Shown: positions 6,342 to 28,418 of the stretch, piece after piece
Layout of the letters: every line of letters begins with the position of its first letter
Numbering within the stretch: the stretch's first letter is position 1
DNA from: Chryseolinea sp. H1M3-3
GTDB taxonomy: Bacteria > Bacteroidota > Bacteroidia > Cytophagales > Cyclobacteriaceae
DNA: 64,000 nt
Reading direction: 5' to 3'
Assembly (NCBI RefSeq): GCF_029360725.1
Contig: NZ_JARKMY010000018.1
Coordinates: 558,001-622,000 of the forward strand
The notes under the pieces: model-generated
Told to the model about the DNA's origin: nothing
The model's database searches: none
The model's input: only the letters and a program-made list of their open reading frames with translations
Program-made: the position numbers and the translations under genes

Positions 6342-6380
6342 GTTAAATGGAGATGTTTTATGCAAGATAAAAATTGTATA

Positions 6381-6422
6381 AAATAAAAGCGGATTCCCGG
6401 TTAAAGGAACCCGCTTTTATTT
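6381..6422 (-). terminator. Strong hairpin terminator after glnN
   Basis: AAATAAAAGCGG at 6381-6392 pairs with CCGCTTTTATTT at 6411-6422. The stem continues through one mismatch for four more pairs. On the minus strand it begins about 20 nt after the glnN stop and is T-rich on its exit side. Confidence 0.75.
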
Positions 6423-6442
6423 ACAGGGTTGGATACGTCAGA

Positions 6443-8605: not shown

Positions 8606-8636
8606 AGATGATTTTGATTTAGACTTATTTTGCGCC

Positions 8637-8644
8637 CAAATCTA
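8637..8644 (-). promoter_or_regulatory. -7 box (TAGATTTG) of glnN
   Basis: The minus strand reads TAGATTTG, an exact TAnnTTTG, leaving a leader of about 27 nt before the glnN ATG. Confidence 0.5.
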
Positions 8645-8794
8645 TTAGAATTTTCGAAACGCCCTTAAAAATTAATCTACAATTTTAATTTTTTATTAAG
8701 AATACGTTTGCGATGGGTAGATTTTACACGACTGGCTATAAATTTCGTTTAAAAACACAGCAACGATAGAGGCTTTCGGAAACGAATGAAGTCA

Positions 8795-11185
8795 CTATTC
8801 TTCCTCTTCTCCCCGTTCCTCCTGGTTGTTGCGCTGTCTTTCTTTTGCCTTATTTAAGCGGTAAGTGAAAGTAACCGTGAATTGCCTTGATCTCCACTGA
8901 AACTCAGAATTAGAATAGTATCCATCGCGATCAATGATTGCACGCCGCTTACGCGAGTTCATCAGGTCACGCACATTCGCCGTAATGGTACCCTTGCCTT
9001 TTAACACATCACGGGATAATCCAAGATCAATTGAATAAATAGATAGATCTTTTCCCTGCGTGGTCAGACGAGGTGCGCGATAATTAAACGAAGCCTGAAA
9101 ATCCCATTTTTCAAAAAGCGTCATTTTGGATGTTGTGCGTGTTGTCCATGTGTAGGTATCGCTTTCAAGAACCTCGCCTTCGTAAACTCCCTTCATAATA
9201 GACCGATAAAAGTTGGCACTGGTATTTACACGCCACCAATCTTGAATATTCAATGAAAGGTTAAATTCCACACCATAAGAATTTTCGTCGGCCAAGTTTA
9301 TAGGCATAACTCTTGAACGGCCCGCAGAATCGGGCTCCGTAATGATTCGCTGTATCACATTCTTTCTGTGCCGATAATAAACATTTGAAAGAATGGAGCC
9401 ATAGTCCCAATCCAACAGATAGCCGGTCTCAATAGAGTTGGTGAAAACGGGGCGCAAATTTGGATTTCCTCCGAAGAGCACGCGTGGATCCCGAAAATCA
9501 GAGAATGGTAATAAGTTACGAAAGTCCGGGCGGTTGATACGATAACTGTAGCTGAGTTGAAGCGTCTTATTCTCCTGAACTTTGTACGACAAGCTGGCAC
9601 TTGGGAAAAGGTTAAAATAGTTTTGAGGTATTGATGTAAATGGTTCTTTCAGCTCGGTTGAAATGTCTGTTAGTTCTGCGCGAAGACCTCCTTGCATCGA
9701 TAATCTTCCGAATGTATTACTACCCATCATATATGCGGCGTGGATGCGTTCTGTGTAAACCAATTCGTTAGTATACTGCGGAATATTGATCCATTCCATT
9801 GAATTATCCAGTGCATCTAAGCCATAGTCATTATTGATGATGCGGGTTGCTGTTTTTACCCCGGCTTCCAATTTACCTTGCTTGCCGAAAGGGTGAATAT
9901 AATCAGCTTGGAAAAGCCAATTGATTTCGTCGGCAAAATTGATTGAGTTTTGAAGGGAATCCAGTCCGTCGTTAACTGACTCGTTGTAGTCTGTACTTTC
10001 GTCGTCTACACTTTTTATCCATTTAAAATCAGCAGTAAAGATTTGGCCCTTTCTTTCAAAATTCTTTTTTAGGCTGAGCGAAGTTTCAATATTCTCTTCA
10101 TCTTCTTTCTCTCGTTCATTCCTTCGTACGGTACGGGCTATCAAACCAGCTTCATCGAAGTCTTCGTATACGGTTTCAGCTTTGCTCAGGCCATCGCCGG
10201 TGTTATACAAGATTGACGCCGTCAATGTAGTGTTATCATTAAGAAAGTAATCCGCGCCAACCGTAAAATTGTGCGAGAACTCACTTTGCGTCCGGTCGTT
10301 CCGTTGCGTGTAGCTGAAACTTGTGTCTGCACTCGTATATTGCTGAAACGAATTTCCATATCCGGGCCGCTTATCGTACTCAATGCCATAACTGGAAAAG
10401 AGATTGACCTTCTTCCTTCGTATATTGATGCTGTATGAACCGCCGTACTGGGCAGGATAACCTACATTGGCGGAGAAACTTCCGTTTACGCCTTTCTCCT
10501 GATTTTTCTTTAATATAATGTTGATGATTCCCACTTCTCCCGCCGCATCGTATCTTGACGAAGGATTGGTGATTACTTCAATACTTTCAATCAGGTTGCC
10601 TTGAAGCATCCTCAGCGCTTCTGGATCACGCGAAGTGAGACCTGAAGGCTTGCCATCGATTAGTATTCTAACGTTATCACTACCGCGCAAACTTACCGTG
10701 CCATCAACATCGACAGTAACAGAAGGTAAGTTTCCAAGAATATCGGAAGCATTGCGTCCCACATTGCTCAAATCTTTTTGAATGTTAAAAACGCGCTTAT
10801 CCAATTGAAGCTCCATAGAAGCTTTTTCACCCTGGACGATAACTTCCTCCAACACCTGGCTGCTTTCATTTAATGTTACAACGCCAAGGTTAAAGGTTGC
10901 ATTGGATACGGCTACGTCAGGAATTATCTTATCCTGGTAAGACAAAAAACTAATCTTGACATAATATTTCCCCGGCTTTACAGGAACGTGAAATTTTCCC
11001 TCTGCATCTGACACGCCACCGGTAATCAAAGCGGAATCAGCAGGATTGTGAACTGCCACATTTCCATATGGCACAGGATTTTTTTGATTGTCCACAATAG
11101 ATCCGATTATAACCGGTTCTTGCGGATTGTCCTGGCCGAATGCAGTGTAACTTATCAAAACAAACAGTAAAAAATGATATTTCAT
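8795..11185 (-). CDS. Outer membrane beta-barrel receptor with carboxypeptidase-regulatory-like domain
   Basis: A 796-aa protein with signal peptide MKYHFLLFVLISYTAFGQ. Residues about 22-105 form a CarboxypepD_reg-like Ig domain (GSIVDNQKNPVPYGNVAV). A plug domain follows (NASDILGNLPSVTVD, VSLRGSDNVRILIDGKPSGL), then a 22-strand-type barrel with many aromatic-rich strands. This is the OMP_b-brl_3 branch of TonB-dependent receptors, smaller than SusC and without a SusD partner here. The C-terminus is unusually charged (RQRNNQEERGEEEE), past the expected last strand TVTFTYRL. It is the last gene of a leftward group with a two-component system, which may control it. Ligand unknown. Confidence 0.88.
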   Translation of the reverse strand: MKYHFLLFVLISYTAFGQDNPQEPVIIGSIVDNQKNPVPYGNVAVHNPADSALITGGVSDAEGKFHVPVKPGKYYVKISFLSYQDKIIPDVAVSNATFNLGVVTLNESSQVLEEVIVQGEKASMELQLDKRVFNIQKDLSNVGRNASDILGNLPSVTVDVDGTVSLRGSDNVRILIDGKPSGLTSRDPEALRMLQGNLIESIEVITNPSSRYDAAGEVGIINIILKKNQEKGVNGSFSANVGYPAQYGGSYSINIRRKKVNLFSSYGIEYDKRPGYGNSFQQYTSADTSFSYTQRNDRTQSEFSHNFTVGADYFLNDNTTLTASILYNTGDGLSKAETVYEDFDEAGLIARTVRRNEREKEDEENIETSLSLKKNFERKGQIFTADFKWIKSVDDESTDYNESVNDGLDSLQNSINFADEINWLFQADYIHPFGKQGKLEAGVKTATRIINNDYGLDALDNSMEWINIPQYTNELVYTERIHAAYMMGSNTFGRLSMQGGLRAELTDISTELKEPFTSIPQNYFNLFPSASLSYKVQENKTLQLSYSYRINRPDFRNLLPFSDFRDPRVLFGGNPNLRPVFTNSIETGYLLDWDYGSILSNVYYRHRKNVIQRIITEPDSAGRSRVMPINLADENSYGVEFNLSLNIQDWWRVNTSANFYRSIMKGVYEGEVLESDTYTWTTRTTSKMTLFEKWDFQASFNYRAPRLTTQGKDLSIYSIDLGLSRDVLKGKGTITANVRDLMNSRKRRAIIDRDGYYSNSEFQWRSRQFTVTFTYRLNKAKERQRNNQEERGEEEE

Positions 11186-16318: not shown

Positions 16319-16421
16319 ATTGTATCCGTATTGTGACGTTCTAATGTTGCGGGTTGCAAGGATGCTCAACAATTTAACCAAACCTTCTCTCACCGAATAT
16401 AAGAAACAAACATTCATCTCT

Positions 16422-16429
16422 TATCTTTG
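16422..16429 (+). promoter_or_regulatory. -7 box (TATCTTTG) for the DUF2062 gene
   Basis: Exact TAnnTTTG match, about 45 nt before the ATG at 16475. Confidence 0.5.
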
Positions 16430-16474
16430 AATGCTGTCGCCAGAAAAAATCTTATGTCGACCTAGGCAACTTTC

Positions 16475-16954
16475 ATGAAGTTAAGTACAAAGCATGTAAA
16501 AAAAGTTTTTTATGACGCTTTCCGCCAGGGACTGACGCCCCATAAACTTGCAATGACGTGTGCCTTGGGAGTGGTCATTGGTATTTTCCCCATTTTTGGA
16601 ACAACGACCATGCTTTGCTTTGCGATAGCAATTGCCTTCCGGTTAAACATTGCAATCATCCAATTGGTTAATTACCTGGTCGCGCCGCTCCAAGTGCTTT
16701 TCATCGTTCCCTTTATCAAGATCGGGACAATATTATTTCGGATGAATCCATTTCCCTATAACGCGGATCAATTAACCGAGCTTTTCCAGAATGACTTTTT
16801 TCTTTTGTTAAAGGAAGTAGGGCTTGCGTTACTTTTAGGAACAGCCGTTTGGGCTACGTTTTCGCTGCCGCTTTTCTTCGTTTTGTACTACTTGTTTTTT
16901 CTACTCTTCAGCAGGTGGCTGAGAGGTCCTCAGCGCGAATTAAAATCCCAGTAA
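16475..16954 (+). CDS. DUF2062 membrane protein
   Basis: A 159-aa membrane protein with the DUF2062 pattern: FRQGLTPHKLAMTCALGVVIGIFPIFGTTT, then LVNYLVAPLQVL, and two C-terminal hydrophobic segments (about 110-150). In other bacteria DUF2062 occurs next to or fused with glycosyltransferases and lipid-handling genes, but no activity is established. Its last 25 nt overlap the end of the convergent LtaS-like gene, so the two are packed 3' to 3'. Whether it belongs functionally with the phosphonate cluster is unclear. Confidence 0.8.
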   Translation: MKLSTKHVKKVFYDAFRQGLTPHKLAMTCALGVVIGIFPIFGTTTMLCFAIAIAFRLNIAIIQLVNYLVAPLQVLFIVPFIKIGTILFRMNPFPYNADQLTELFQNDFFLLLKEVGLALLLGTAVWATFSLPLFFVLYYLFFLLFSRWLRGPQRELKSQ

Positions 16955-18759
16955 AGTTTTTGTATGTAGGCTTTACCTTCCAGCAGATGATCGTCTTTGT
17001 AATCGCCCTTTTGCTGGATCACGGCATTAGATACGTTATCATAAACAAAAAGGCCATTCTCGCGGATCATTCCGAATCCATTATTAAAAACATAGACGGC
17101 AAATGGATTGTAAGACGACCCTAAAATATTCTGACCAAATTTAAATTCGTCGGCGCTTAAGTTAAACTGAGCGAGTACCGTGTTAGGTATATCAGTTTGT
17201 GTTGCAACAGCGTGAATAACGGTATCCCTAACATTTAATGCCCCGCCTAACCATAACATCGGAACCCGGAATTTCGTCGGGTTGGAAACGCCTGGATTGT
17301 CAGGATATGGATGGCCATGATCAGCCGTAACAATAATCAGTGTATTTTCCCACCAGGAACTCTTTTTCGCTTTGTCGATAAATTCTCCAAATTCTTTGTC
17401 TGTATAGTATACCGAATTCAGAAACTGGTGAACTTCATCCTTGCCCTTAATAACCGTTTCCATGGGCACTTCGAATGGTTCATGACTACTTTGCGTCATC
17501 ATGATTTTAAAGAAGGGCGTAGCTGCGGCTTGCGTCTCTTCAAAAAACTTATCAAAAACAAATTCATCATGCACACCCCACTTGCTCGTATTCAGTTCTT
17601 CCGGAAAATCCGCACTGTGCGTTATATGATCGAATTCTGCATGGATAAGGTAAGAATTAAAGTTAGCGTAGTTGATGTTGTATCCGTAGGTAAATTCGGT
17701 CCGATACCCAAGCTGTTTAAAAATCTTGTTAAGATAGGGCAGGCTTTTAGTTTTCTTCGGCTCCTTGATAATGGACGTGAGCGGTTGCGAAGGATAACCG
17801 TTTAAGATCGCTACAATACCTTTGTCCGTACGATCGCCACTGCAATGAAAATGATCGAAAAGAATTCCTTCTTTCACAAGTTCGTTAAAACGCGGCGTGA
17901 TCCCCGGACGTCCACCCAATGGTTCAATGACGCTTGATGTGAAACTCTCTAAGACAATAATGAGAATGTTTGGTTTTTCACTTTTCAAAACAATCGTAGT
18001 GCTGTCAGACTTCGGAAAAAGTTTTTGATAATATTGCTCTGTCAATGTCTTATCAAAGTAATTGTCTGCATACTTCAGCCTATTCATTTTCTGTACAGCA
18101 TAGAGAAAGTTCCAAACAACATTTACTGCGGAGTGATTGGCAAAAATTTTACTTTCATGAAAATAAACAAAACCTGAATTCATCGGCGCGACGCCGAAAC
18201 TACCACGAATTGGAATGATGAAAAGCGTTGTCGAAAATAAGACTGTAGGAATCGCCTTCCAGTCAGCAGCAGGAAGCTGGAGAATTCTATTTTTAAAATA
18301 TCTATAGAAAGAAAAAAGACCTGCGCTAAAAATCACAAGCCAATAGACCAGCAAAAATATAGTTTGCCAGAAGTCACCCGAGCCAGCTGCTTCTTTTCCC
18401 ATATACATCAATGGCGTCGCATCTAATCTAAAGCCCCAGTGCTTGTATAATTCAAAATCAAGAACGATGATAAAACTCGATACAAACAAAATGATCGCGT
18501 GATAAACAATCCAGATGGGCCAAATATTTCTTCCGGTAAGAAACGATCCTATTGAAAATAATAATCCTGGGAACAGTGAAAAATATCCAGCCATGGAGAA
18601 GTCCATTCGGATTCCATTCGTAAAAACACGAATCATTTCGAAGATGGAAAGCTCATTGGCAAGGTTGCTATGATAAAGCATGAACAACCCCCGTGCGATG
18701 AGAAAGAAAATCGTCCAGGCTATGAATCCAGAAAAAAGAATAATTAGTCTTTGTTTCAT
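16930..18759 (-). CDS. LTA synthase/phosphoethanolamine transferase-like membrane protein (Thr nucleophile)
   Basis: A 609-aa protein with five predicted N-terminal membrane helices (within residues 5-190) and a sulfatase-fold catalytic domain outside the membrane. Metal and catalytic residues resemble LtaS/EptA: Glu271 in NILIIVLESF, nucleophile Thr311 in CSGDRTDKGI, and TADHGHPYP for the distal metal ligands. Such enzymes transfer phosphoglycerol or phosphoethanolamine from a phospholipid to an acceptor. It lies 133 nt downstream of the phosphonate nucleotidyltransferase on the same strand. That position suggests it may transfer an aminoethylphosphonate head group from a phosphonolipid, which is inference. 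A plain phospholipid donor remains possible. Confidence 0.85.
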   Translation of the reverse strand: MKQRLIILFSGFIAWTIFFLIARGLFMLYHSNLANELSIFEMIRVFTNGIRMDFSMAGYFSLFPGLLFSIGSFLTGRNIWPIWIVYHAIILFVSSFIIVLDFELYKHWGFRLDATPLMYMGKEAAGSGDFWQTIFLLVYWLVIFSAGLFSFYRYFKNRILQLPAADWKAIPTVLFSTTLFIIPIRGSFGVAPMNSGFVYFHESKIFANHSAVNVVWNFLYAVQKMNRLKYADNYFDKTLTEQYYQKLFPKSDSTTIVLKSEKPNILIIVLESFTSSVIEPLGGRPGITPRFNELVKEGILFDHFHCSGDRTDKGIVAILNGYPSQPLTSIIKEPKKTKSLPYLNKIFKQLGYRTEFTYGYNINYANFNSYLIHAEFDHITHSADFPEELNTSKWGVHDEFVFDKFFEETQAAATPFFKIMMTQSSHEPFEVPMETVIKGKDEVHQFLNSVYYTDKEFGEFIDKAKKSSWWENTLIIVTADHGHPYPDNPGVSNPTKFRVPMLWLGGALNVRDTVIHAVATQTDIPNTVLAQFNLSADEFKFGQNILGSSYNPFAVYVFNNGFGMIRENGLFVYDNVSNAVIQQKGDYKDDHLLEGKAYIQKLYWDFNSR

Positions 18760-18892
18760 GTCTGGGCCGTTAATCCGTTGATAGTTTCAGGGCTGATCAA
18801 AGGAAATGTATCATTGAATGTTCTCTATTAAATACAGATTTTTAACAAATATTTAAAATCCAATACATAACAAGCAACATTCAAATGTTGGT

Positions 18893-19627
18893 TCATTTCT
18901 GTTGAATCTTCGGGTAAATTAATGTAAGTGCCCGTTGCAGATGGTTTTCATCATCGATTTCACACCATACCAAATCCTGTATTACTTTAATATTGATTGG
19001 TTGTTGATGCGCGACACCTACCAAAGCATCTTCATAATTTAACATCTTGTTTCCGTTTTTAAAATGGGTTTCTGAGAAGAATGCCATTTTCTGCAACGTG
19101 CTCACCGTTAACTTACTTATCCCTACCAGTTCGCCGCTGATATGACTCAGTATACTTCGATTTTTACTCATTTGTTGCAGATGACTTTCCGGCGATGCCT
19201 GGATAAAAACTTCGTCACCTGATTGTGTTGCACCACTGGCCAGAATAATATCTTCCAACGGATCCTCCTGAAGATATTTCAGCGCTACGGGGTCATATAG
19301 CAAGTCGCTTTCCAAAAGCAAAAACGGTCGTTTGACTAAATGTCGAAGAACATACAGTGTGTACATGCTTCCCGTAGTGCTGTAGTCGTCATTTCGAAAA
19401 GTGGTAATCGGATACTTTTCTTTTAACATTTCAAAATGTTCAGCACGATAACCGGTACCTATAACGATTTCAGTTATTCCGGCATTAAGCAAGTTTGAGA
19501 CAGATCGTTCCATCAGGGACGTTCCATCCACTTCCAGGAAACCTTTCGGCTGCGCCTCGGTATGATGTTTTAGGCGGGAACCCAATCCAGCGGCCAGTAT
19601 AACGGCCGTGGTAACTTTTGAATGCAT
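18893..19627 (-). CDS. Sugar/choline-phosphate-type nucleotidyltransferase, candidate CTP:2-aminoethylphosphonate cytidylyltransferase
   Basis: A 244-aa Rossmann-like NTP transferase. The signature loop is intact: LAAGLGSRL at residues 11-19 and Lys28 in AQPKGF. NDDYSTTGSMYTLYVL and LLLESDLLYD resemble the LicC (CTP:phosphocholine) and PntC (CTP:AEP) enzymes, in which the aspartate binds metal. It overlaps the phosphonopyruvate decarboxylase gene by one base (TAATG), so the two are translationally coupled. Expected reaction is CTP + AEP to CMP-AEP + PPi. CTP and AEP specificity are inferred from family and context. Confidence 0.85.
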   Translation of the reverse strand: MHSKVTTAVILAAGLGSRLKHHTEAQPKGFLEVDGTSLMERSVSNLLNAGITEIVIGTGYRAEHFEMLKEKYPITTFRNDDYSTTGSMYTLYVLRHLVKRPFLLLESDLLYDPVALKYLQEDPLEDIILASGATQSGDEVFIQASPESHLQQMSKNRSILSHISGELVGISKLTVSTLQKMAFFSETHFKNGNKMLNYEDALVGVAHQQPINIKVIQDLVWCEIDDENHLQRALTLIYPKIQQK

Positions 19628-20754
19628 TAACCGATGAATTTGATCAACCTTTCCTTCACTTCAAATGGCTTCACGGTCGGCCTGCCTAATTCAGCAGGAG
19701 AACCTTGCGATATCTTCATGTGAATAAAAGTAAGTTGGCCATCTTTTTTCCACGCCTTAATTGCTTCTTCCAATTCGTGAAGAGAATTGACTTGCAGTGA
19801 TACGGGATAACTTACCGTTGATGCCATGGAAGCAAAATCAACAATGTGAGAAACCGTTGCCTGGCCACCAGTAGAGTCATGCGCATTGTTATCAAGTAAA
19901 ATGTGCATGAGGTTCTTGGGTTGGTAGTACGCATTTGTTGCAAATGAACCCATGCGCATCAATGCCGATCCATCGCCATCAATGGCAATAACTTTTTTAT
20001 CCGGGCGGGCTAACGCGAGGCCTAAGCCCAGTGAACTAATGCATCCCATCGATCCAACCATGTACAGGTTGTTCGGTTTGTCTTCGACTTCAAAAAGTTC
20101 ACGCCCTGTTTTGCCTGTGGTGGCGAGGAGGATTGTATCCTTGTCAGCCAAATCAGAAATGGCTTTCAATGCCTGCGTGCGGATTGGAAGAGATTGCTTT
20201 GCAGAAGATTTTTGAAGTTTGCTATTGGAAACTTGTTTTAACGCCTGCGGGTTAAGTTTTACATCACCAAACACTCCTTTTTTAACTACAAAAAAGAAAG
20301 TGCGACCTTCTTCAATATGCTTGTTTGCTTCTTTTAATTGTTTGATAGCTTCAGCTTCGTCTTCGGAAAGATAAGCCCACTCTACCTTCATCAGCGCCAG
20401 CATTTTTTCGGTAATCTGCCCCATTAGTTCATGCTGTGGTTCGTCTTTAACGCCTGGTTCTCCACGCAGACTAACAAATCCCAAGACAGGCAGCTTAAAA
20501 GTATAATTCAATGAAGTTAACGGTGACGTTGCATTGGTCAATCCGGAATTTTGCATCAACACAACAGCTTTCTTCCCTCCTAACTTGGCACCCGATGCAA
20601 TCGCCACAGCATCGCCTTCATTGGCCGCCATCACATAGTCACATTCATTGATCGCATAATTGATCAGAGCTTTCAAAAAAGAACAAGGCACCCCGGAATA
20701 AAAATCAAAACCCAGGGCTTTCATTTCATCACCAAATGTTTTTGTATTAATCAT
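19627..20754 (-). CDS. ppd: Phosphonopyruvate decarboxylase
   Basis: A 375-aa ThDP enzyme. The N-terminal pyrimidine-binding domain shows YSGVPCSFLKAL and AANEGDAVAIASGA (activating Glu); the C-terminal half has the ThDP motif GDGSALMRMGSFATNAYY ending at LLDNNAHDSTGGQ. These are the hallmarks of Ppd/AepY rather than acetolactate synthase, and the short length fits. It decarboxylates phosphonopyruvate to phosphonoacetaldehyde, which drives the unfavourable PEP mutase step. The start lies 15 nt after the pepM stop, and its stop overlaps the nucleotidyltransferase start, so the three genes form one operon. Confidence 0.95.
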   Translation of the reverse strand: MINTKTFGDEMKALGFDFYSGVPCSFLKALINYAINECDYVMAANEGDAVAIASGAKLGGKKAVVLMQNSGLTNATSPLTSLNYTFKLPVLGFVSLRGEPGVKDEPQHELMGQITEKMLALMKVEWAYLSEDEAEAIKQLKEANKHIEEGRTFFFVVKKGVFGDVKLNPQALKQVSNSKLQKSSAKQSLPIRTQALKAISDLADKDTILLATTGKTGRELFEVEDKPNNLYMVGSMGCISSLGLGLALARPDKKVIAIDGDGSALMRMGSFATNAYYQPKNLMHILLDNNAHDSTGGQATVSHIVDFASMASTVSYPVSLQVNSLHELEEAIKAWKKDGQLTFIHMKISQGSPAELGRPTVKPFEVKERLIKFIG

Positions 20755-20769
20755 CTCAAAAAATTAGAA

Positions 20770-22368
20770 TTACAGACGAAGTTTTCCGGCATTTTGAAAA
20801 TCAACAATGGTATCTACATCCAGCCATGCCCCGCTGATGTACTTTACTGCGATGGTTTGTTCTTTCGCAATTTCATTAAAAAGATCGGTACACGTCATCG
20901 TTTTGAAGTTGGGATCCTTGCTAAGTTTTTCCAAAGCTTTCAATACCTGTGCAGCGCCAGTTTGATTAACTTTCCACAACCCAATGAATTCACCAAAGAT
21001 GTCTTTTCTTGGAAGTGTTGTGCCCATCTTTTTGAAAACTGAAGTTCCAAGGTAATTGGTTCTATCATACTTTTCGGAAGCAGAAACAAAATCCTTATCA
21101 AGTCCATCTTCTTCACAATCTGCATCTACCACAATCGTGATATTGTTTTGATCGTTTAGCAATTCGTGTAATACATATCGTTTGAAAATGATATCACCAT
21201 AGCTAATCAATGTATTTTCTTTGATTTGATCTTTCGCCAGGTATAAAGAGTAAAGTTCTTTTGTAGTAGCATATTCATCATTATCTACTGTGCTAATGTT
21301 GTTAAGTTTCACCTTCTCCTTTTTGAAACCGCGCACAACCGTAACATCTTTTATGCCTAACTGATTGAACTCTTCCACCTGCGTGTTGAGCAAAGATTTT
21401 CCGTTTATCTCTAACAACGTCTTAGGTGCATCTTTAGTCAGATCACCGAGTGACCCTTGGCTTGCCGCCAGTACAATACTATTTACTTTCTTTCCGGTTG
21501 TAGGCAGGTACTTATCTTCAGCGGCCTCCAGTTCATCGGCACCTTGCAAACGAAAAATTTCATTTACGCTTACAACTTTGCTTTCAACATTAATCAACGT
21601 TTGTTCCTTGAAGATGCGGGCTGACGTCTCCTGCATAGCTTTTATTGAAGACCTCACATTGTGGTTTGCCCAAATGATGGTACTTATTCCAATTTGCCTG
21701 AAATGATCTGTAGGGATAGAATAATATTTCGTGGGCACAATAATAACCGGGCAACGGTTCCCCCACTCCTTCATAAATGCATCAATATCGGATGAATCCG
21801 CTTTTTTGCTGTGGCAGAGAATTGCATCTGCTCCTGCCTTGTGATATGCGTCTGCTCTTCTCAACGCCTCATCCAGGCCCCATCCGGCGATGAAAGCCTC
21901 CAGACGAGCCACCACCATAAAATCGTCATCCGATTGTGTATCCTTTGCTGCCTTTATTTTTCCACTGAACTCGTCTACATCTGCCAACGGCTGATTTTCC
22001 CCGCCGATAAAGGAGTTGGTTTTGGGAAACAGTTTGTCTTCAATGCATACTGCAGCGATGTCGCGTTGCTCCAGCTTTTTTACCAGCCGGCGCATGTTGT
22101 TGAAGTTTCCATAGCCGGTATCGCCATCCAATAAAATCGGAATGGTTGTGGCATCGCTCATGAATTCGAGCACATCTAAGACTTGTGTCCACGAGGCTTC
22201 GTTGTTATCACGTACGCCAAGCGCTGCGGAAATGGACAGACCGCTTCCCCAGATACCCTTGAAACCTGCTTCTTCAACAATCTTTGCCGATAAGCCGTTG
22301 TGGGCTTCCATAAGAAACGCCATTTCCGGCGAATTGACCATTGTTCTTAGCTGTGTCGTTTTCTTCAT
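20770..22368 (-). CDS. pepM: Phosphoenolpyruvate mutase fused to a nucleotidyltransferase domain
   Basis: A 532-aa two-domain protein. Residues about 1-285 are PEP mutase: DGDTGYG at 81-87 and [10 protein letters not shown] at 110-119, the exact motif that separates PEP mutase from isocitrate/methylisocitrate lyases. It converts PEP to phosphonopyruvate, creating the C-P bond. Residues about 296-532 are a LicC/PntC-like nucleotidyltransferase domain ([33 protein letters not shown]). Its nucleotide loop is altered: AASQGSLG at 301-308 in place of AAGxGSRL, so Arg is missing while Lys316 is kept. The domain may be inactive or have a different specificity. First gene of the leftward arm, with its own -7 box. 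Confidence 0.95.
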
Positions 22369-22396
22369 ATTAAAAAATGTCTTTTAAAAATGCGGC

Positions 22397-22404
22397 CAAA
22401 AATA
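22397..22404 (-). promoter_or_regulatory. -7 box (TATTTTTG) of the pepM operon
   Basis: The minus strand reads TATTTTTG, an exact TAnnTTTG preceded by TTG, with about 25 nt of leader before the pepM ATG. The 224-nt divergent spacer (22369-22592) presumably also holds the rightward promoter, for which no exact box is visible. Confidence 0.5.
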
Positions 22405-22592
22405 CAACCTTATCATAATATCTTGATCATCTTCCTTTAAAATAACCTACCTCCCAGCCTATTTTAGAATTTTATTTACTTTTTTTGCGTTGTGAGAGTT
22501 CGTGATACGGTTTATCAGATCATTTTTTCCTGACTCATGTTCGTGCTTTCAATTTTTGAGGTAAGGGTAACGCTCCACTTTTACATGACGAT

Positions 22593-24536
22593 ATGCACAT
22601 TTTGAAGTATTTCAAGGACGTCCGCCTGAAAGGCAATATATATTGGGTTCTGTTTTTACGCCTCATGCTGGCAATGCTGTTATTTACGCTTTGCAGGGTC
22701 GGCTTTTACATCTACAACACTACCTATTTCCCCGAAATGACTGTGGTTCATTTTCTAAGAATCATGTGGGGCGGACTTCGGTTTGACATGACGGCGGTCT
22801 TGTATATCAATGCACTTTTTATACTGTTGCACCTTGTCCCTTTTGACTTCCGGTTCAACTCGGTTTACCAGGCGATGTTGAAGTTTATGTTTTTCATTCT
22901 GAATGGCATTGGCATCGCCGCCAACCTCGCTGACTTCATTTATTACAAGTTCACGCTGCGAAGAACCACCGCCGACATTTTTAATGAATTTGAAGAAGGT
23001 CCTGGGGCGGGTAATCTGTTCTTTCGGTTTCTTTTGGACTACTGGTATGTTACCGTTTTTGCTGTCGGAATTTATTGGCTGATGGTATTTCTTTACAAAC
23101 GGATACATGTTGAAGGGCCCATGGTGCAGAACCGGATTGCTTACTACAGTGCGGGAGTCCTTGCCATACCAATGGTAGCATACCTGTTCATCGGCGGTGT
23201 TCGCGGCGGCTTCAAGCATAGCACACGACCAATCACACTTAGCAATGCTGGCGAATATGTAAAATATCCCCGCGAAACAAACCTGGTGCTCAACACGCCA
23301 TTTTCTGTTTTCCGAACGATTGGAAAAACTAAAATTCAAAAAGTAAAATATTTTGAAAGTGACGAAGCCGCAGCCTCCGTTTTCAATCCTGTGCATACAC
23401 CGGAAGACACCGTTGCGTTTCGCCCAGATAATGTTGTGGTTATTTTGCTGGAGAGTTTTTCGAAGGAATTTTTCGGCGCTTTCAATAAAGATAAACCTGG
23501 CTATAAAGGATACACACCTTTTCTGGATTCATTGATTCAGCACAGCAGAACTTTTCAATATTCATTTTCAAATGGACGAAAATCAATTGATGGTCCGCCT
23601 TCCGCTTTAGCGAGTTTACCTACGTTGGGTGTTCCATTCGTCTTGACGCCTTACGCTACCAATAAGTTTAATAGTCTGGCAACAACGTTGGGAGACAAGG
23701 GGTATCATACTGCTTTTTTTATCGGGCATCCGAATGGTGCAATGGGATATACTGGGTTTACGCAACTGGCAGGATTTCAAGAATATTATGGTATGGATGA
23801 ATATGGCAATTCTGATGACTCCGATGGCTTGTGGGGAATCTGGGATCATAAGTTCTTACCCTTCTTTGCCGACAAACTCAATGAATTTAAAAAACCATTT
23901 TTTGCGACATTGTTTACGGTCAGTTCCCATCATCCCTTCAAAGTGCCTCAGGAATTCGAAGGAAAATTTAAGGGTGGAGATAAGCCTATTTTGAAATGCA
24001 TTGAATACACCGATCATTCGCTCCGAGAGTTCTTTAACACTGTAAAGAAAGAGCCGTGGTATAAAAACACCTTGTTTGTTTTTACAGCAGATCATTGTTC
24101 ATCGGATATTATTTTTGATGAATCACGGACGAATTGGGGATACTATTCGGTACCTGTCATTTTTTTCAAACCTGATAATAGTTTAGCGGGGCATACTAAC
24201 GAGATCGCGGCACAAGTTGATATCATGCCTTCAGTGTTGGGGCACCTCCATTATGATAAACCGTATGTAGCATTTGGAAGAGATATCTTTCGCGAGAAAC
24301 TGCAACCCATTGCCTTTAACTACAACGATGCATACAACCTATATCAGGGCGAATATCTGCTTACCTTCAATGGAGAAAAGACTATCGGGCTTTACAACTT
24401 TGTTCAGGATAAAATGTTGACGCATGATTTGAGGAACGAAAAACCTGAAGTTATTGAACAGATGGAACCGAAAATTAAGGCGATCATTCAACAATATAAC
24501 AACAGGCTAATCGAAAACCGGCTGACGGTGAATTAG
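22593..24536 (+). CDS. LTA synthase-family sulfatase-fold membrane transferase (Ser nucleophile)
   Basis: A 647-aa protein with about five N-terminal membrane helices (residues 15-205) and an extracytoplasmic sulfatase-fold domain. Glu287 in VVVILLESFS is the metal ligand, the nucleophile position is Ser331 in SNGRKSIDG, and the distal ligands are in TADHCSSD. LtaS/EptA enzymes normally use Thr here; Ser occurs in many Bacteroidota members. It is transcribed divergently from pepM and precedes the CDP-alcohol phosphotransferase gene by 97 nt. It is a plausible transferase of a phosphonate or phosphoethanolamine head group. It is only distantly similar to the leftward paralogue, so the two probably have different acceptors. 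Confidence 0.85.
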   Translation: MHILKYFKDVRLKGNIYWVLFLRLMLAMLLFTLCRVGFYIYNTTYFPEMTVVHFLRIMWGGLRFDMTAVLYINALFILLHLVPFDFRFNSVYQAMLKFMFFILNGIGIAANLADFIYYKFTLRRTTADIFNEFEEGPGAGNLFFRFLLDYWYVTVFAVGIYWLMVFLYKRIHVEGPMVQNRIAYYSAGVLAIPMVAYLFIGGVRGGFKHSTRPITLSNAGEYVKYPRETNLVLNTPFSVFRTIGKTKIQKVKYFESDEAAASVFNPVHTPEDTVAFRPDNVVVILLESFSKEFFGAFNKDKPGYKGYTPFLDSLIQHSRTFQYSFSNGRKSIDGPPSALASLPTLGVPFVLTPYATNKFNSLATTLGDKGYHTAFFIGHPNGAMGYTGFTQLAGFQEYYGMDEYGNSDDSDGLWGIWDHKFLPFFADKLNEFKKPFFATLFTVSSHHPFKVPQEFEGKFKGGDKPILKCIEYTDHSLREFFNTVKKEPWYKNTLFVFTADHCSSDIIFDESRTNWGYYSVPVIFFKPDNSLAGHTNEIAAQVDIMPSVLGHLHYDKPYVAFGRDIFREKLQPIAFNYNDAYNLYQGEYLLTFNGEKTIGLYNFVQDKMLTHDLRNEKPEVIEQMEPKIKAIIQQYNNRLIENRLTVN

Positions 24537-24633
24537 GGAAGTTCGCAATGGAAATAATACATGTGAAATGTTCAGATAAAATAAACGCGAGCATTAACCC
24601 TATTTCAAAATTTATTTCACTTCTTTTGCTGCG

Positions 24634-25620
24634 ATGAGACCGTATCAATACCGATGTAATGACTATTCTCTGTTAACCCCAGCTTTTAAACGTTGGATCA
24701 TAACACCGATGATTCGATTTGTACCCTGGGTTATACCCGCAAATATTATCACGTTTATCTCTAATGGTATTGTTTATTTTGGTCTATACCTGGCGTTGAA
24801 CCCACAACATTTTGGTAAAGCCACACCATTTCTGATCTCAGCAACATTTATCCTGTACTTAATCGGAGATCATCTCGACGGAATGCAAGCAAAACGGACC
24901 GGAACTGGTTCAGCATTAGGAGAATTTTGTGATCATTACCTGGATGCATTTAACAACGGCTTAATCATATTTACCATGATTGTAGTTTTTGGAATTACTC
25001 ACACGCCAGTAATCGTTGGATTGATCGTAGTTTCTTATTGGGCGCACATGACCGTTTTTTACGAGCAGTTCAAAACGGGATGGCTAACCTTTGAGCCGGT
25101 TGGATCGCTTGAAGGCGTATTACTATCCGCAGTACTTATCGCCATGTCGGCGTTTGAGCCCATCTATGCGATTTTTACGTATCCACTTTTTGAAGATTAC
25201 ACGGTCATCGAATTCGTGCTGATTTTATCTTCATTAGGGGCAGTCATCACGTTATATAAAACCTGGAAACGTACGCCCGATGTTAAGTCGGGGTTCTGGA
25301 TGTTTACATGTTTATCGGCTGTCGCTGGCATTTTAGCTGCTCCCTTCTTCAGCAGCTTTCAACTATTTGTTTTGCTAACACTCTATTGCAGCCTCTACAT
25401 CGGCCGTATTATGCACGGTCATTTGATTGATGGCAACGAACGTTCAACGGACTATCTAACACCAATAATTCTTTTAGCATTATACATACCACCATTTCCG
25501 TATACCCACTACGTGTTCGGGGTACTAACCACATATCTATCGATCAATATTGCTATTCTTATTTTCAAAACTTTTTCAGTCCTGAAAGTATATTGGGTCT
25601 GGTTAAACTTACGCACCTAG
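24634..25620 (+). CDS. CDP-alcohol phosphotransferase, candidate CMP-AEP:diacylglycerol (or ceramide) transferase
   Basis: A 328-aa membrane protein with about eight to ten helices. The family signature DGxxAR-x8-Gxxx-DxxxD is present as D82-G83, A86-K87, G96, D100 and D104, with Lys in place of the first Arg. The surrounding DGMQAKRTGTGSALGEFCDH is strikingly like the eukaryotic choline/ethanolamine phosphotransferases rather than bacterial PgsA or PssA. The size also suits that branch. It sits 1 nt before the AEP transaminase gene. The likely reaction is transfer of AEP from CMP-AEP to diacylglycerol or ceramide, giving a phosphonolipid. CDP-ethanolamine use is an alternative. Confidence 0.85.
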   Translation: MRPYQYRCNDYSLLTPAFKRWIITPMIRFVPWVIPANIITFISNGIVYFGLYLALNPQHFGKATPFLISATFILYLIGDHLDGMQAKRTGTGSALGEFCDHYLDAFNNGLIIFTMIVVFGITHTPVIVGLIVVSYWAHMTVFYEQFKTGWLTFEPVGSLEGVLLSAVLIAMSAFEPIYAIFTYPLFEDYTVIEFVLILSSLGAVITLYKTWKRTPDVKSGFWMFTCLSAVAGILAAPFFSSFQLFVLLTLYCSLYIGRIMHGHLIDGNERSTDYLTPIILLALYIPPFPYTHYVFGVLTTYLSINIAILIFKTFSVLKVYWVWLNLRT

Positions 25621-25621
25621 C

Positions 25622-26734
25622 ATGAAGCAAGTCGCTCGAAAAATTTTATTGAACCCTGGTCCTGCTACCACAACAGATACCGTAAAGCAAGCCATGGTGG
25701 TTGAAGATATTTGTCCGCGTGAAAAAGATTTTGGAAAACTATTAGATTCCATCAAAGAAGACCTGGTAAAAGTTGTGCATGGCGGAGACGAATACATCGC
25801 CGCGTTGTTTACAGCAAGTGGCACCGGAGGTCTTGAAGCTGCCATTACCTCTGCGGTACCGAAAGAAAAAAAAATTTTGATCATCGACAACGGAGCCTAC
25901 GGAGCGCGAATGGCAAACATTGCTTCAACCTATGGGATTGACGTTGTTTCATATAAAGTTGCCTATGGTGATTTCCCCGACGTAAATCATGTTGAAAAAC
26001 TCTTAAAGGAAAATAAGGATGTAAGTCATTTGGCTGTTGTGCATCACGAAACAACAACTGGTATACTAAATCCTGTCCAGGCGATATGCGATTTGGCAAA
26101 AAAGTTTGGGGTAGAAGTAATTGTGGATTGTATGAGTTCATACGCCGGGATCCCCATAGACGTCAAAAGATGGGGTGCCGGTTATTTAATTTCATCCTCA
26201 AACAAATGCATTCAGGGAATGCCCGGAATGGTTTTTGTGATTTTCAAGAAGGCACTGTTACCGGAATTAAAAAATCAAAAGCGTTCGTATTATTTTGATT
26301 TGTATAGCCAGTATGTTGGTTTTGAAAAAACGGGTCAGATGCAGTTTACGCCACCCGTGCAGGTGGCCTATGCACTAAGGCAAGCCATTGACGAATATTT
26401 TACAGAGGGTGAGGCGAACCGCTGGAACCGGTATCAGGAGAATTGGAATGTGTTGTGCAGCGGCCTAAAAAAATTAGGTTTTGAATTTCTCTTGCCAGAC
26501 CAGTATCAATCAAAAATTTTATTGGCGATCAAAGAGCCTAGCAGTCCCCGATACAACTTCGATGCTATGCATGATTACCTATACCAACGCGGGTACACCA
26601 TTTATCCGGGAAAAGGAGCTAAAGAGGCAACTTTTCGGCTATCGGTGCTCGGTGACTTATACAAAACAGATATTGAGAATTTCTTAGCTGAACTGAAAGG
26701 TTATTTACTTCATGCAGGCATTATCACGGCATGA
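25622..26734 (+). CDS. phnW: 2-aminoethylphosphonate transaminase (PhnW type)
   Basis: A 370-aa class V PLP aminotransferase. The N-terminal LLNPGPATTTDTVKQAM is the PhnW/AEPT hallmark. HETTTGILNP (residues 142-151), Asp169 in VDCMSSY, and the PLP lysine K195 in SSSNKCIQGMPG are visible. In phosphonate degradation the enzyme converts AEP plus pyruvate to phosphonoacetaldehyde plus alanine; beside pepM and ppd it should run in reverse to make AEP. No phosphonatase (PhnX) is in the window, which supports a biosynthetic role. It starts 1 nt after the phosphotransferase gene and overlaps the next gene by 4 nt. Confidence 0.93.
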   Translation: MKQVARKILLNPGPATTTDTVKQAMVVEDICPREKDFGKLLDSIKEDLVKVVHGGDEYIAALFTASGTGGLEAAITSAVPKEKKILIIDNGAYGARMANIASTYGIDVVSYKVAYGDFPDVNHVEKLLKENKDVSHLAVVHHETTTGILNPVQAICDLAKKFGVEVIVDCMSSYAGIPIDVKRWGAGYLISSSNKCIQGMPGMVFVIFKKALLPELKNQKRSYYFDLYSQYVGFEKTGQMQFTPPVQVAYALRQAIDEYFTEGEANRWNRYQENWNVLCSGLKKLGFEFLLPDQYQSKILLAIKEPSSPRYNFDAMHDYLYQRGYTIYPGKGAKEATFRLSVLGDLYKTDIENFLAELKGYLLHAGIITA

Positions 26735-27483
26735 TGATATTCAACAAAACCATCTTGCAAAAAGATTTAGGAATTCGCAGAGGCCTTATAGCTTTTTTAC
26801 TGTTGCTTAACGTAACGGCTAACGGTCAGCAGTTCGGATTATCCTTTTCTTATTTCATTCCAAAAAATGGTGACTTCTCCACACCTATCAGTCCGTTTTC
26901 AATTCGTGGATTAGGTGTTGATCTTAATCGATTTATCGCACTTGAGACTGGCGCATCGCTTTATCGGATGTCAGGTTTGAATATAAAAGATCTCCCTTTC
27001 GAATCCAAAAAAGCATTGGTGGGACCGAACTTTACCATTCTGGTTCCTGCTGAAATCGTTTTCTCACTCAAAGGCTCCGCTGTTGAATTCGACGTAAAGG
27101 GTGGAGTCTTCGGATTTTATGGATTTGGCCAGAAAATCAATTATGGAAACTTTGACCGCGCCATCCGGGAATATGAAAATTGGCAAGTTGCTAATAGTGA
27201 TTTCTCTTACGACAACAAACCAGGGTGGGGATATCACGCCGGCGCTGAACTCACCATTTATGTAACGCAACAGGTAGGCATTTCGTTAGAAACGAATTAC
27301 TTGATGGGTAGTTCCAAATTTCCACTGAAAGGAAGTTATATTGGAGGAAACGCCTCCCTTGAAACAAAGCAGGTGGAATATGCTGATGCCAAAATCGATT
27401 TAACAGGACTTGAATTTTCAATCGGAGTAATTTTTAATTCAGGCCAAGGCGGTGGACCTCCAAAGAAAAAAAGGCGCAGATAA
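26731..27483 (+). CDS. Uncharacterised outer-membrane beta-barrel-like protein
   Basis: A 250-aa exported protein. The N-terminus has basic residues and a hydrophobic core (LIAFLLLLNVTANG) before QQFGLSFSYFIPK, a probable signal peptide. Alternating aromatic strands (GWGYHAGAELTIYVTQQVGISLETNY) suggest a small outer-membrane barrel. It ends in a basic tail, PPKKKRRR, beyond the last predicted strand. Its ATG lies inside the phnW stop region (ATGA overlap at 26731-26734), so it is translated with the AEP transaminase. No family is recognised with confidence. The coupling suggests a role in handling or sensing phosphonate-modified envelope components, which is inference. Confidence 0.7.
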   Translation: MMIFNKTILQKDLGIRRGLIAFLLLLNVTANGQQFGLSFSYFIPKNGDFSTPISPFSIRGLGVDLNRFIALETGASLYRMSGLNIKDLPFESKKALVGPNFTILVPAEIVFSLKGSAVEFDVKGGVFGFYGFGQKINYGNFDRAIREYENWQVANSDFSYDNKPGWGYHAGAELTIYVTQQVGISLETNYLMGSSKFPLKGSYIGGNASLETKQVEYADAKIDLTGLEFSIGVIFNSGQGGGPPKKKRRR

Positions 27484-27527
27484 GGTTATGGTGCTATGCT
27501 TGAAGTTAAGCTCCTGTTCACGACGGT

Positions 27528-28418
27528 ATGACAAAAGGTAATTCTGAAGATAAAATATTCATCATCGGGATGATATTGAGCATGACTTGCTGGGGTTTTA
27601 GCTGGACTTCAGGAAAAATCCTTTCCAACTACGGAGATCCACTTACCATTTCATTTCTCCGGTTTTTAGTGACGTTTCTTTCCCTGGTGGTTATACTTTA
27701 CTTCATGAAAGAACGGATGTCAATAAGCCGCAATGGTTATGTTGATCTTTTCGTTGCGGCGGCACTGATTTCACTTTATACTTTTCTTTTTTTCAAAGGT
27801 CTCACATTAGGTAAGCCTGGGGCCGGTGGTGTACTGGTGACCGTGTTAAATCCCATCATCACGTATGCGATGAGTCTGGTTTGGGCTGGACGTAAACCAA
27901 CACGAAATGAATTCTTTGGATTGACGTTGGGGCTTATCGCAGGGGTCGTTTTACTAAAGCTGATTACGGAAGCAGGTGAAATATTTAAGGCAGGAAATAT
28001 TTTCTTCCTGTTGGCGTCATTTACATGGGCTATATTAAGTCGTTTCACCGCAAGAGCTACACGTTACGGTTCGTCTCTGTCTTTCAGTTTCTGGATGTAC
28101 GGAATTAGCACGCTGCTGATGTTTTTATTGTCGGGTTGGAGTGCATCTTCAGAGACCCTGAGCAAGAGCGATTTTACTTTTTGGGGAAATCTTTTTTTTA
28201 GTGCAACTATAACGACGTCGCTGGCTACAACATTTTATTTTGTCGCTACGTCAAAGGTTGGTGCAAGCAAGGCCAGTAGTTTTATCTTTATGGTGCCGTT
28301 TTCTGCTGCCCTGGGCTCGTGGATTTTTCTGGGAGAGATCATACAAATGCACACAATGATTGGTGGAATTTTAGGGATCGCAGCAGTTTACATTTTGAAT
28401 AAGAAGGAAGCCTCCTGA
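27528..28418 (+). CDS. DMT-superfamily (EamA) transporter
   Basis: A 296-aa integral membrane protein with about ten helices in two EamA repeats. The first repeat starts GMILSMTCWGFSWTSGKILSNYG, and the second ends FMVPFSAALGSWIFLGEII. DMT/EamA proteins are drug or metabolite exporters, with substrate not predictable from sequence. It lies 45 nt after the barrel protein on the same strand, so it may be read through from the phosphonate operon. It converges on the capA-like gene with only 29 nt between the stops and no clear terminator. Confidence 0.88.
   Translation: MTKGNSEDKIFIIGMILSMTCWGFSWTSGKILSNYGDPLTISFLRFLVTFLSLVVILYFMKERMSISRNGYVDLFVAAALISLYTFLFFKGLTLGKPGAGGVLVTVLNPIITYAMSLVWAGRKPTRNEFFGLTLGLIAGVVLLKLITEAGEIFKAGNIFFLLASFTWAILSRFTARATRYGSSLSFSFWMYGISTLLMFLLSGWSASSETLSKSDFTFWGNLFFSATITTSLATTFYFVATSKVGASKASSFIFMVPFSAALGSWIFLGEIIQMHTMIGGILGIAAVYILNKKEAS

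Follow-up and report, generated by a model that had tools for sequence, protein, structure and literature searches.

A phosphonate island of Chryseolinea sp. H1M3-3 reads as a candidate lipid-linked 2-aminoethylphosphonate tailoring cassette

What would a bacterium do with genes that appear to lead from phosphoenolpyruvate (PEP) to an activated phosphonate and that lie beside genes for membrane transferases? The question is raised by the genome of Chryseolinea sp. H1M3-3 (6.88 Mb), of which we analyzed one 64,000-nt stretch (GCF_029360725.1, NZ_JARKMY010000018.1, 558,001–622,000). This whole stretch is called the window, and coordinates refer to it unless another locus is named. Its phosphonate island (16418–26730) lies between an amidohydrolase gene and the gene of a barrel-like protein and consists of two gene arms separated by a divergent intergenic region (22369–22592). 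An original prediction had described a cluster for making 2-aminoethylphosphonate (AEP) and placing it on lipid or envelope glycan; the coordinates and strands of all genes that it named were correct, as was the position of the PepM motif. Judging from sequence and homology, we favor with moderate confidence a lipid-linked phosphonyl-tailoring cassette in which AEP would be activated to its cytidine monophosphate derivative (CMP-AEP), loaded onto diacylglycerol, and transferred to the envelope by an LtaS-type membrane transferase, LtaS-A. The original prediction thereby keeps its PEP-to-CMP-AEP set, a CDP-alcohol phosphotransferase (CDP-AP) tied to that set, and LtaS-A, and loses an exported barrel and a second LtaS-type enzyme, LtaS-B.

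The synthesis of AEP is the firmest part of this reading. PepM (20770–22368, minus strand) scored 398 bits against TIGR02320 (curated cutoff, 320) through residues ~1–280, and its ten-residue motif EDKxxxxxNS (residues 110–119; 22012–22041, minus strand) is present in 12 of 12 aligned sequences. Ppd, the phosphonopyruvate decarboxylase (19627–20754, minus strand), reached 417.9 bits against TIGR03297 (cutoff, 312.5). PhnW (25622–26734, plus strand) reached 436.2 bits against TIGR03301 (cutoff, 360.8), which places it among AEP transaminases (PhnW/AepZ); against the narrower TIGR02326, it scored 367.7 bits, under the cutoff of 400.8. By family membership, PepM would convert PEP to phosphonopyruvate, Ppd would decarboxylate phosphonopyruvate to phosphonoacetaldehyde, and PhnW would aminate the latter to AEP. 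With these three enzymes above curated cutoffs and a PntC match described below, the complete gene set from PEP through AEP to CMP-AEP is present as predicted, and synthesis of both compounds by the cassette is near certain as far as family assignment allows. On contig C2 of the host genome, a further PEP_mutase-family gene (L049, 9609–10342) is read in two overlapping frames, perhaps owing to a frameshift.

Two candidates for the CMP-AEP synthase are encoded: a free nucleotidyltransferase (NTP; 18893–19627, minus strand) and an NTP-transferase domain fused to PepM (residues ~295–532; PF12804, 34.9 bits). The best Protein Data Bank (PDB) match of the free protein is PntC of Treponema denticola (6pd1; E = 1.6e-65), over almost its entire length. 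It keeps the GxG(T/S)R..PK motif and all five of the residues R15, K25, E104, K153, and E196, which passages of PMC6697681 place at CTP or AEP in PntC. These five also occur in 16 aligned relatives, except that L063 does not keep K153 and L098, cut short by a contig end, is missing two of the positions. The fused domain gave weaker matches to LicC and PntC than the free protein. Across 12 of 12 fused PepMs, including one from a Desulfobacterales metagenome-assembled genome (MAG), the fused domain (20770–21486 in the window) is missing the Arg of GxG(T/S)R, with the Lys and acidic motifs kept. Fused and separate NTP domains coexist in T. denticola, Atopobium rimae, and Olsenella uli, and the assayed enzymes Ari1348 and Tde1415 (the latter fused to a transaminase) are presented as separate-type domains in passages of PMC6697681. 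Because the free protein keeps the residues, the fused domain is Arg-less, and the assayed enzymes are separate domains, the free gene is the better candidate. It likely encodes PntC, the CTP:2-aminoethylphosphonate cytidylyltransferase that would convert AEP to CMP-AEP, whereas the fused domain, disfavored by its missing catalytic Arg, is probably not the CMP-AEP synthase.

The next step would be catalyzed by CDP-AP (24634–25620, plus strand; PF01066). Alignments show that it keeps the CDP-alcohol phosphotransferase signature DxxDGxxA[RK]x8GxxxDxxxD (residues 79–104; 24868–24945, plus strand). Its predicted model (predicted local distance difference test [pLDDT] score, 91.8) aligned over 319–325 of 328 residues with 8ul9 (Z 33.1; 325 residues), human CHPT1 (Z 33.0), human CEPT1 (Z 32.8), and Xenopus CHPT1 (Z 30.4). 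The first of these is a cholinephosphotransferase with bound diacylglycerol, which we take to be the yeast enzyme. Among the aligned chains, only eukaryotic choline/ethanolamine phosphotransferases gave full-length cover, the next family reaching Z 15 over ~185 residues. Beyond the PIPS/PgsA/PSS types and CEPT/CPT, no family stood out among the structure matches, which is not proof of absence. Signature and full-length fold together assign CDP-AP to the CEPT/CPT branch.

CDP-AP also tracks the fused PepM. In a profile search of 148 genomes of the host's family, six genomes gave matches with E values of 1.5e-150 or lower, and these are exactly the genomes with a full-length fused PepM; since their six proteins made up the profile, their scores are high by construction. 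No match in the other 142 genomes was better than E 1e-60, and four weaker ones lay in G142, G036, G145 (a fragment), and G075, those of G142 and G036 being 25–26% identical to the window CDP-AP. At the order level, the PepM query gave a match at E ≤ 1e-60 in four of 390 genomes, one without the fused domain. A motif-led scan of one genome per species (84,980 species) retrieved 24 CDP-AP loci. Sixteen of them share 38% identity or more, a set that leaves out a 31-residue fragment (L073); among these, pepM lay within the locus in 11, lay elsewhere in the genome in three, was not found in one whose contig begins at the gene, and was not searched for in one. For the remaining eight, pepM was elsewhere in the genome in three and not found in five. 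L145 (3415–4551), apparently the L073 record, holds a decayed cassette with an 81-residue CDP-AP remnant and a HAD gene, and its genome gave no pepM match.

The donor of such enzymes plausibly follows the neighboring gene, since a 30% identical CDP-AP homolog in a Treponema MAG (L070) adjoins a cytidylyltransferase–choline kinase fusion. There, as in the window, a bacterial CEPT-type enzyme stands beside the maker of its donor; a choline kinase domain takes the place of PepM, Ppd, and PhnW. Fold, motif, and co-occurrence make it likely that CDP-AP loads AEP from CMP-AEP onto diacylglycerol at the inner face of the membrane, giving AEP-diacylglycerol. The AEP-lipid-forming phosphotransferase of the original prediction is thus sharpened to a lipid-type enzyme tied to the fused PepM across genomes.

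The gene set recurs in 13 distinct loci with pepM and CDP-AP on one contig (the window, G015, G107, G016, G110, G046, L051–L054, L059, L063, and L064). In Cytophagales, one arm reads LtaS-A, (HAD), PntC, Ppd, and PepM, and the other CDP-AP and PhnW. LtaS-A is on the same contig in 10 loci, on a second contig in two (G110 and G046, where it adjoins a PntC gene cut by the contig end, from which we infer contiguity with the cassette), and missing from one (L059). In all six family genomes with the fused PepM, CDP-AP lies beside PepM and LtaS-A is present (in two of them on the second contig). The original prediction had offered to yield to homologous clusters consistently without the phosphotransferase and transferases, and none of these six is without CDP-AP or LtaS-A. 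The nearest relative with the same locus is a congener (G015), and the cassette is also present in a named strain, Splendidivirga corallicola BMA10 (L055). In two Bacteroidota MAGs (L063 and L064), CDP-AP and LtaS-A are joined to a different PepM architecture, best matched by the protein of L041, whose N-terminus is cytidylyltransferase-like. L059, a Desulfobacterales locus, has four genes (5388–10987) encoding PepM-NTP, Ppd, a PntC-transaminase fusion as in T. denticola, and CDP-AP; we regard it as a minimal phosphonolipid set.

Within the window, the leftward arm is tight between pepM and ppd (15-nt gap) and between ppd and the NTP gene (1-nt overlap), and the 133 nt between the NTP gene and LtaS-A exceed the short gaps originally implied. 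In the rightward arm, LtaS-B and CDP-AP are 97 nt apart, and the predicted 1-nt and ATGA junctions are found between CDP-AP and phnW (1-nt gap) and between phnW and the barrel gene (4-nt ATGA overlap). In four cassettes (L036, 7444–8097; L037; L052; L094), though not in the window, PntC and LtaS-A are separated by a gene for a HAD hydrolase of the phosphoglycolate phosphatase/PpaX type; L088 has such a gene beside an LtaS-A without fused PepM. A DUF2062 membrane protein (16475–16954, plus strand; PF09835, 66 bits), overlapping LtaS-A tail to tail in the window, adjoins LtaS-A in nine of the 10 Cytophagales cassettes. With homologs in 37 of 148 family genomes, it is a weak cassette marker.

The transfer step would fall to LtaS-A (16930–18759, minus strand; PF00884). 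Its best PDB match is VP1736, followed by lipoteichoic acid (LTA) primase and LtaS. It keeps E271, T311, H426, D480, and H481; in the alignment, E271, H426, D480, and H481 occupy 31 of 31 rows, and residue 311 is Thr in 25 and Ser in six, as expected of an LtaS-type phosphotransferase. In LtaS, the nucleophile and metal ligands are E255, T300, D475, and H476 (passages of PMC7576196), and H347, D349, F353, W354, R356, and H416 bind glycerol phosphate (passages of PMC4973235). The latter six align with LtaS-A residues 358, 360, 364, 365, 367, and 426, the Staphylococcus aureus numbers having been transferred by counting residues from the His in aligned relatives of LtaS; residues 358–367 (17659–17688, minus strand) correspond to the head-group loop. 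At the positions of H347, D349, W354, and R356, the window protein has Y358, Y360, A365, and F367 and thus does not carry the glycerol-phosphate residues of LtaS proper.

What it carries instead distinguishes Cytophagales cassette copies. Between 10 Cytophagales cassette copies and 18 others, strict separation was found only at residues 364 (Tyr versus Phe) and 421 (Met), and with one exception at 360 (Tyr versus Gly). Two of these three residues fall in the six-residue pocket (p = 2.4e-4, calculated post hoc and ignoring phylogeny). All 10 Cytophagales cassette copies carry Tyr360, Tyr364, and Met421 together, against none of 35 noncassette copies. The 35 come from 39 rows; the four left out are the two G109 pieces and one second copy each from G049 and G113. 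L055, identical to L037, was omitted from tree and residue comparison, and L063 and L064 were counted apart. Among the 17 noncassette copies fetched after the signature was set, Tyr360 appeared in none, Tyr364 in three, both in none, and Met421 in none. The signature is also missing from the noncassette LtaS-A (L104) of a cassette-bearing genome, G046. After flipping of the AEP-lipid, LtaS-A would take AEP onto Thr311 and hand it to an envelope acceptor, and the diacylglycerol thus freed could be recharged by CDP-AP, a form of diacylglycerol recycling. Because LtaS-A is conserved in the cassette and has two cassette-specific tyrosines in its head-group pocket, we infer such a transfer, which now has a residue-level correlate (Tyr360 and Tyr364); a role as AEP transferase is plausible, with the balance about even.

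LtaS-B (22593–24536, plus strand; PF00884), which has a Ser aligned with the Thr nucleophile, is another matter. It occurs in 23 of 148 family genomes, most without fused PepM, and searches of G015 and G107 gave no match to it at E ≤ 1e-60. Only in the window does it lie inside the cassette; G110 and G046 have it past DUF2062 on the contig that carries LtaS-A, and two congeners have it at other chromosomal sites. Given this scattered placement and occurrence, we rejected it as a conserved member and regard it as an optional second transferase. The proposal that two sulfatase-fold enzymes pass on the head group accordingly narrows to LtaS-A. LtaS-B lies directly upstream of CDP-AP in L065 (7459–10461), with no pepM in the locus; in that genome, pepM is found at another contig end (L115) beside a different CDP-alcohol phosphotransferase and an NTP gene.

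Relatives of LtaS-A outside the cassettes inform both its donor and its origin. In G142 and G036, LtaS-A is divergent to the distant CDP-AP, and the gene that comes after LtaS-A encodes, according to Pfam in G142, a diacylglycerol kinase; in G054, a diacylglycerol kinase gene is itself the divergent partner of LtaS-A. These pairs fit a diacylglycerol-type donor lipid and show that LtaS-A is by origin not phosphonate-specific. L086 (8135–11059) and L087 (8849–11756) have the same divergent arrangement of LtaS-A and a distant CDP-alcohol phosphotransferase, and neither locus contains pepM. Both pairs adjoin a diacylglycerol-kinase gene (by Pfam in L086 only), and their CDP-AP motif ends in Glu instead of Asp; we regard them as a sister module.

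Several observations weigh against the favored reading of the cassette. Of 148 family genomes, 41 have an LtaS-A homolog, 35 of these 41 do not have the fused PepM, and G142 and G036 pair LtaS-A with a distant CDP-AP where the fused PepM is missing; the basic job of the LtaS-A family is therefore not AEP transfer. The Desulfobacterales locus has lipid genes and no LtaS, and three Treponema/Spirochaetaceae genomes have a homologous CDP-AP and pepM, yet apart. The tyrosine signature was found after the fact, single tyrosines occur outside cassettes (Tyr360 alone in one of 18, Tyr364 alone in three of 17), and the Bacteroidota cassette copies L063 and L064 are without all three residues, having Gly and Phe in place of the tyrosines. 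In a tree built without the signature columns, cassette LtaS-A proteins are not one clade (approximately unbiased test [p-AU], 0.0195, for a group named after the first tree), and residues 364 and 360 need two and three changes, respectively. The LtaS-A model (pLDDT, 63) was too poor for a structure search. Some of these points equally suit a pathway that ends at the AEP-lipid, with LtaS-A and LtaS-B as general head-group transferases (for phosphoglycerol or phosphoethanolamine) that merely share the locus: 35 of 142 family genomes without fused PepM have LtaS-A, nine loci have it beside the barrel gene, LtaS-B occurs in 23 of 148 family genomes as noted above, and the Desulfobacterales set and the tyrosine-free L063 and L064 copies are at hand. 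We nevertheless consider this rather unlikely, as LtaS-A sits inside the cassette across differing chromosomal contexts, it is present in every one of the six family genomes with the fused PepM (chance probability, 3.4e-4 under independence of the genomes, an assumption that does not hold), and Tyr360 with Tyr364 occupies the head-group positions in cassette copies only. Transfer by LtaS-A could then be one half of a two-stage relay, which we put forward tentatively: AEP-diacylglycerol would serve mainly as donor, LtaS-A would be a dedicated AEP transferase whose pocket was remodeled (Tyr360, Tyr364, and Met421) on joining the cassettes, and the recharging of diacylglycerol would close the cycle. 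For phosphonate decoration, the LtaS fold would thereby offer an alternative to LicD, possibly reached twice, since a single Cytophagales cassette LtaS-A clade is disfavored (p-AU rounded to 0.02, same group).

The other explanations change the acceptor or the purpose. Ceramide as the CDP-AP acceptor would give a ceramide-AEP sphingophosphonolipid; such lipids exist elsewhere, and the host genome has four matches to an L041 protein that we take to be a serine palmitoyltransferase (best, 37% identity), possibly other enzymes of that large family. We consider this improbable, given that the full-length structural matches are choline/ethanolamine phosphotransferases, the best one solved with diacylglycerol, and that the 13 cassettes have no gene inserted between their members other than, in some loci, the HAD gene. 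Less probable still is direct transfer from CMP-AEP to a glycan by a LicD-type enzyme encoded elsewhere, as proposed for other Pnt clusters, with another job for CDP-AP. The family's pepM clusters of other architecture do lie near LicD (3/3 scanned) and Stealth genes (2/2 scanned), but CDP-AP tracks the fused PepM, and a Pfam scan of ten window genes (16475–28415) found no LicD, the whole genome not having been searched. A role in breaking down AEP or exporting a small molecule, in place of decorating the envelope, is hardly credible. PhnW also starts AEP catabolism, and an EamA transporter gene lies nearby (27528–28418); however, PepM and Ppd build a C–P compound, and among the cassette loci scanned, EamA recurs only in the congener G015. 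The original prediction had noted no phosphonatase or C–P lyase in the window, and a genome-wide search covering PhnX and PhnJ extends this. PhnX (TIGR01422) had three weak matches, none over the cutoff, in a search that lacked a positive control, since none of 14 control genomes passed either; PhnJ was absent, with Escherichia coli as the positive control. A catabolic role is unlikely.

The surroundings of the island clarify where it ends. In the congeners G093 and G136, the amidohydrolase and barrel genes are 211 and 65 bp apart, compared with 10,313 bp in the window (first-start open reading frame calls), and neither genome contains LtaS-A, CDP-AP, or fused PepM at the thresholds used. This 10.3 kb against a near-empty site indicates that the cassette arrived or moved as a block or, less simply, that the congeners lost it as one, with the barrel gene as a neighbor. 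G+C content shows no step across the island, and its composition is not unusual; a foreign origin judged by composition was rejected for want of such a step. The barrel-like protein (26731–27483, plus strand) had no match in a Pfam scan. Its gene lies beside LtaS-A without fused PepM in nine other genomes and at the empty site of both congeners, on which grounds the exported barrel, originally counted as part of the AEP system, is reassigned as a flanking gene.

In this compact and conserved set of genes, a candidate enzyme can be named both for loading the lipid and for the transfer that follows. If the reading is right, a phosphonate head group with a nonhydrolyzable C–P bond would be used like phosphoethanolamine, and a second route would exist beside LicD inside one bacterial family. 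Nine other pepM-bearing family genomes have proteins 35–41% identical over the PepM part, and the three scanned for LicD come from these nine. A second kind of phosphonate cluster in the family (L041, L042, and L044; also L040, L043, and L045) combines a PepM bearing an N-terminal cytidylyltransferase-like domain with Ppd, PhnW, and PntC. LicD was confirmed in L041, L042, and L044, none was seen by eye in L040, and genes that by appearance resemble sphingolipid-synthesis genes lie within ~10 kb of some of these clusters.

Among published systems, the Pnt clusters of T. denticola, A. rimae, and O. uli, as described in passages of PMC6697681, share with the window a PepM-fused NTP domain, a separate PntC, AEP-making genes, and a CMP-AEP donor. 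They have LicD-like phosphotransferases or glycosyltransferases where the window has a CEPT-type lipid phosphotransferase and LtaS-type transferases. In those passages (2019), the steps after C–P bond installation are called enigmatic, and the discussion ends at CMP-AEP. Phosphonolipid clusters that combine pepM with a CDP-alcohol phosphotransferase have already been published: according to passages of PMC5987646, a lichen Nostoc cluster, which has a homologous cluster in Burkholderia and is proposed to make a phosphonolipid, has in common with the window pepM, ppd, AEPT, an NTP transferase, and a CDP-alcohol phosphatidyltransferase. The Nostoc cluster has an extra oxidase and other genes, and those passages name no LtaS-type enzyme. 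An LtaS-based AEP relay was not met in searches of open-license literature, which covered mostly the starts of abstracts and in which "2-aminoethylphosphonate" and "LtaS" never appeared together; absence there is not absence in print.

The two membrane steps also have counterparts at the protein level. CDP-AP shares with eukaryotic CPT1/CEPT1 the full-length fold, the CDP-alcohol motif, and presumably a cytidine-activated donor, at 14–18% identity over the structural alignment, and its proposed donor, CMP-AEP, differs in having a C–P bond. CPT1 and CEPT1 belong to the Kennedy pathway, where the cytidine-activated donor is an amino alcohol. LtaS-A, in turn, resembles the lipid head-group transferases LtaS, EptA, and OpgB: it joins membrane helices to a sulfatase-fold domain and has the Thr nucleophile and the metal ligands. 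Cassette LtaS-A departs from LtaS in the pocket, where the W354 and R356 positions are Ala/Ser and Phe and where Tyr360 and Tyr364 are found.

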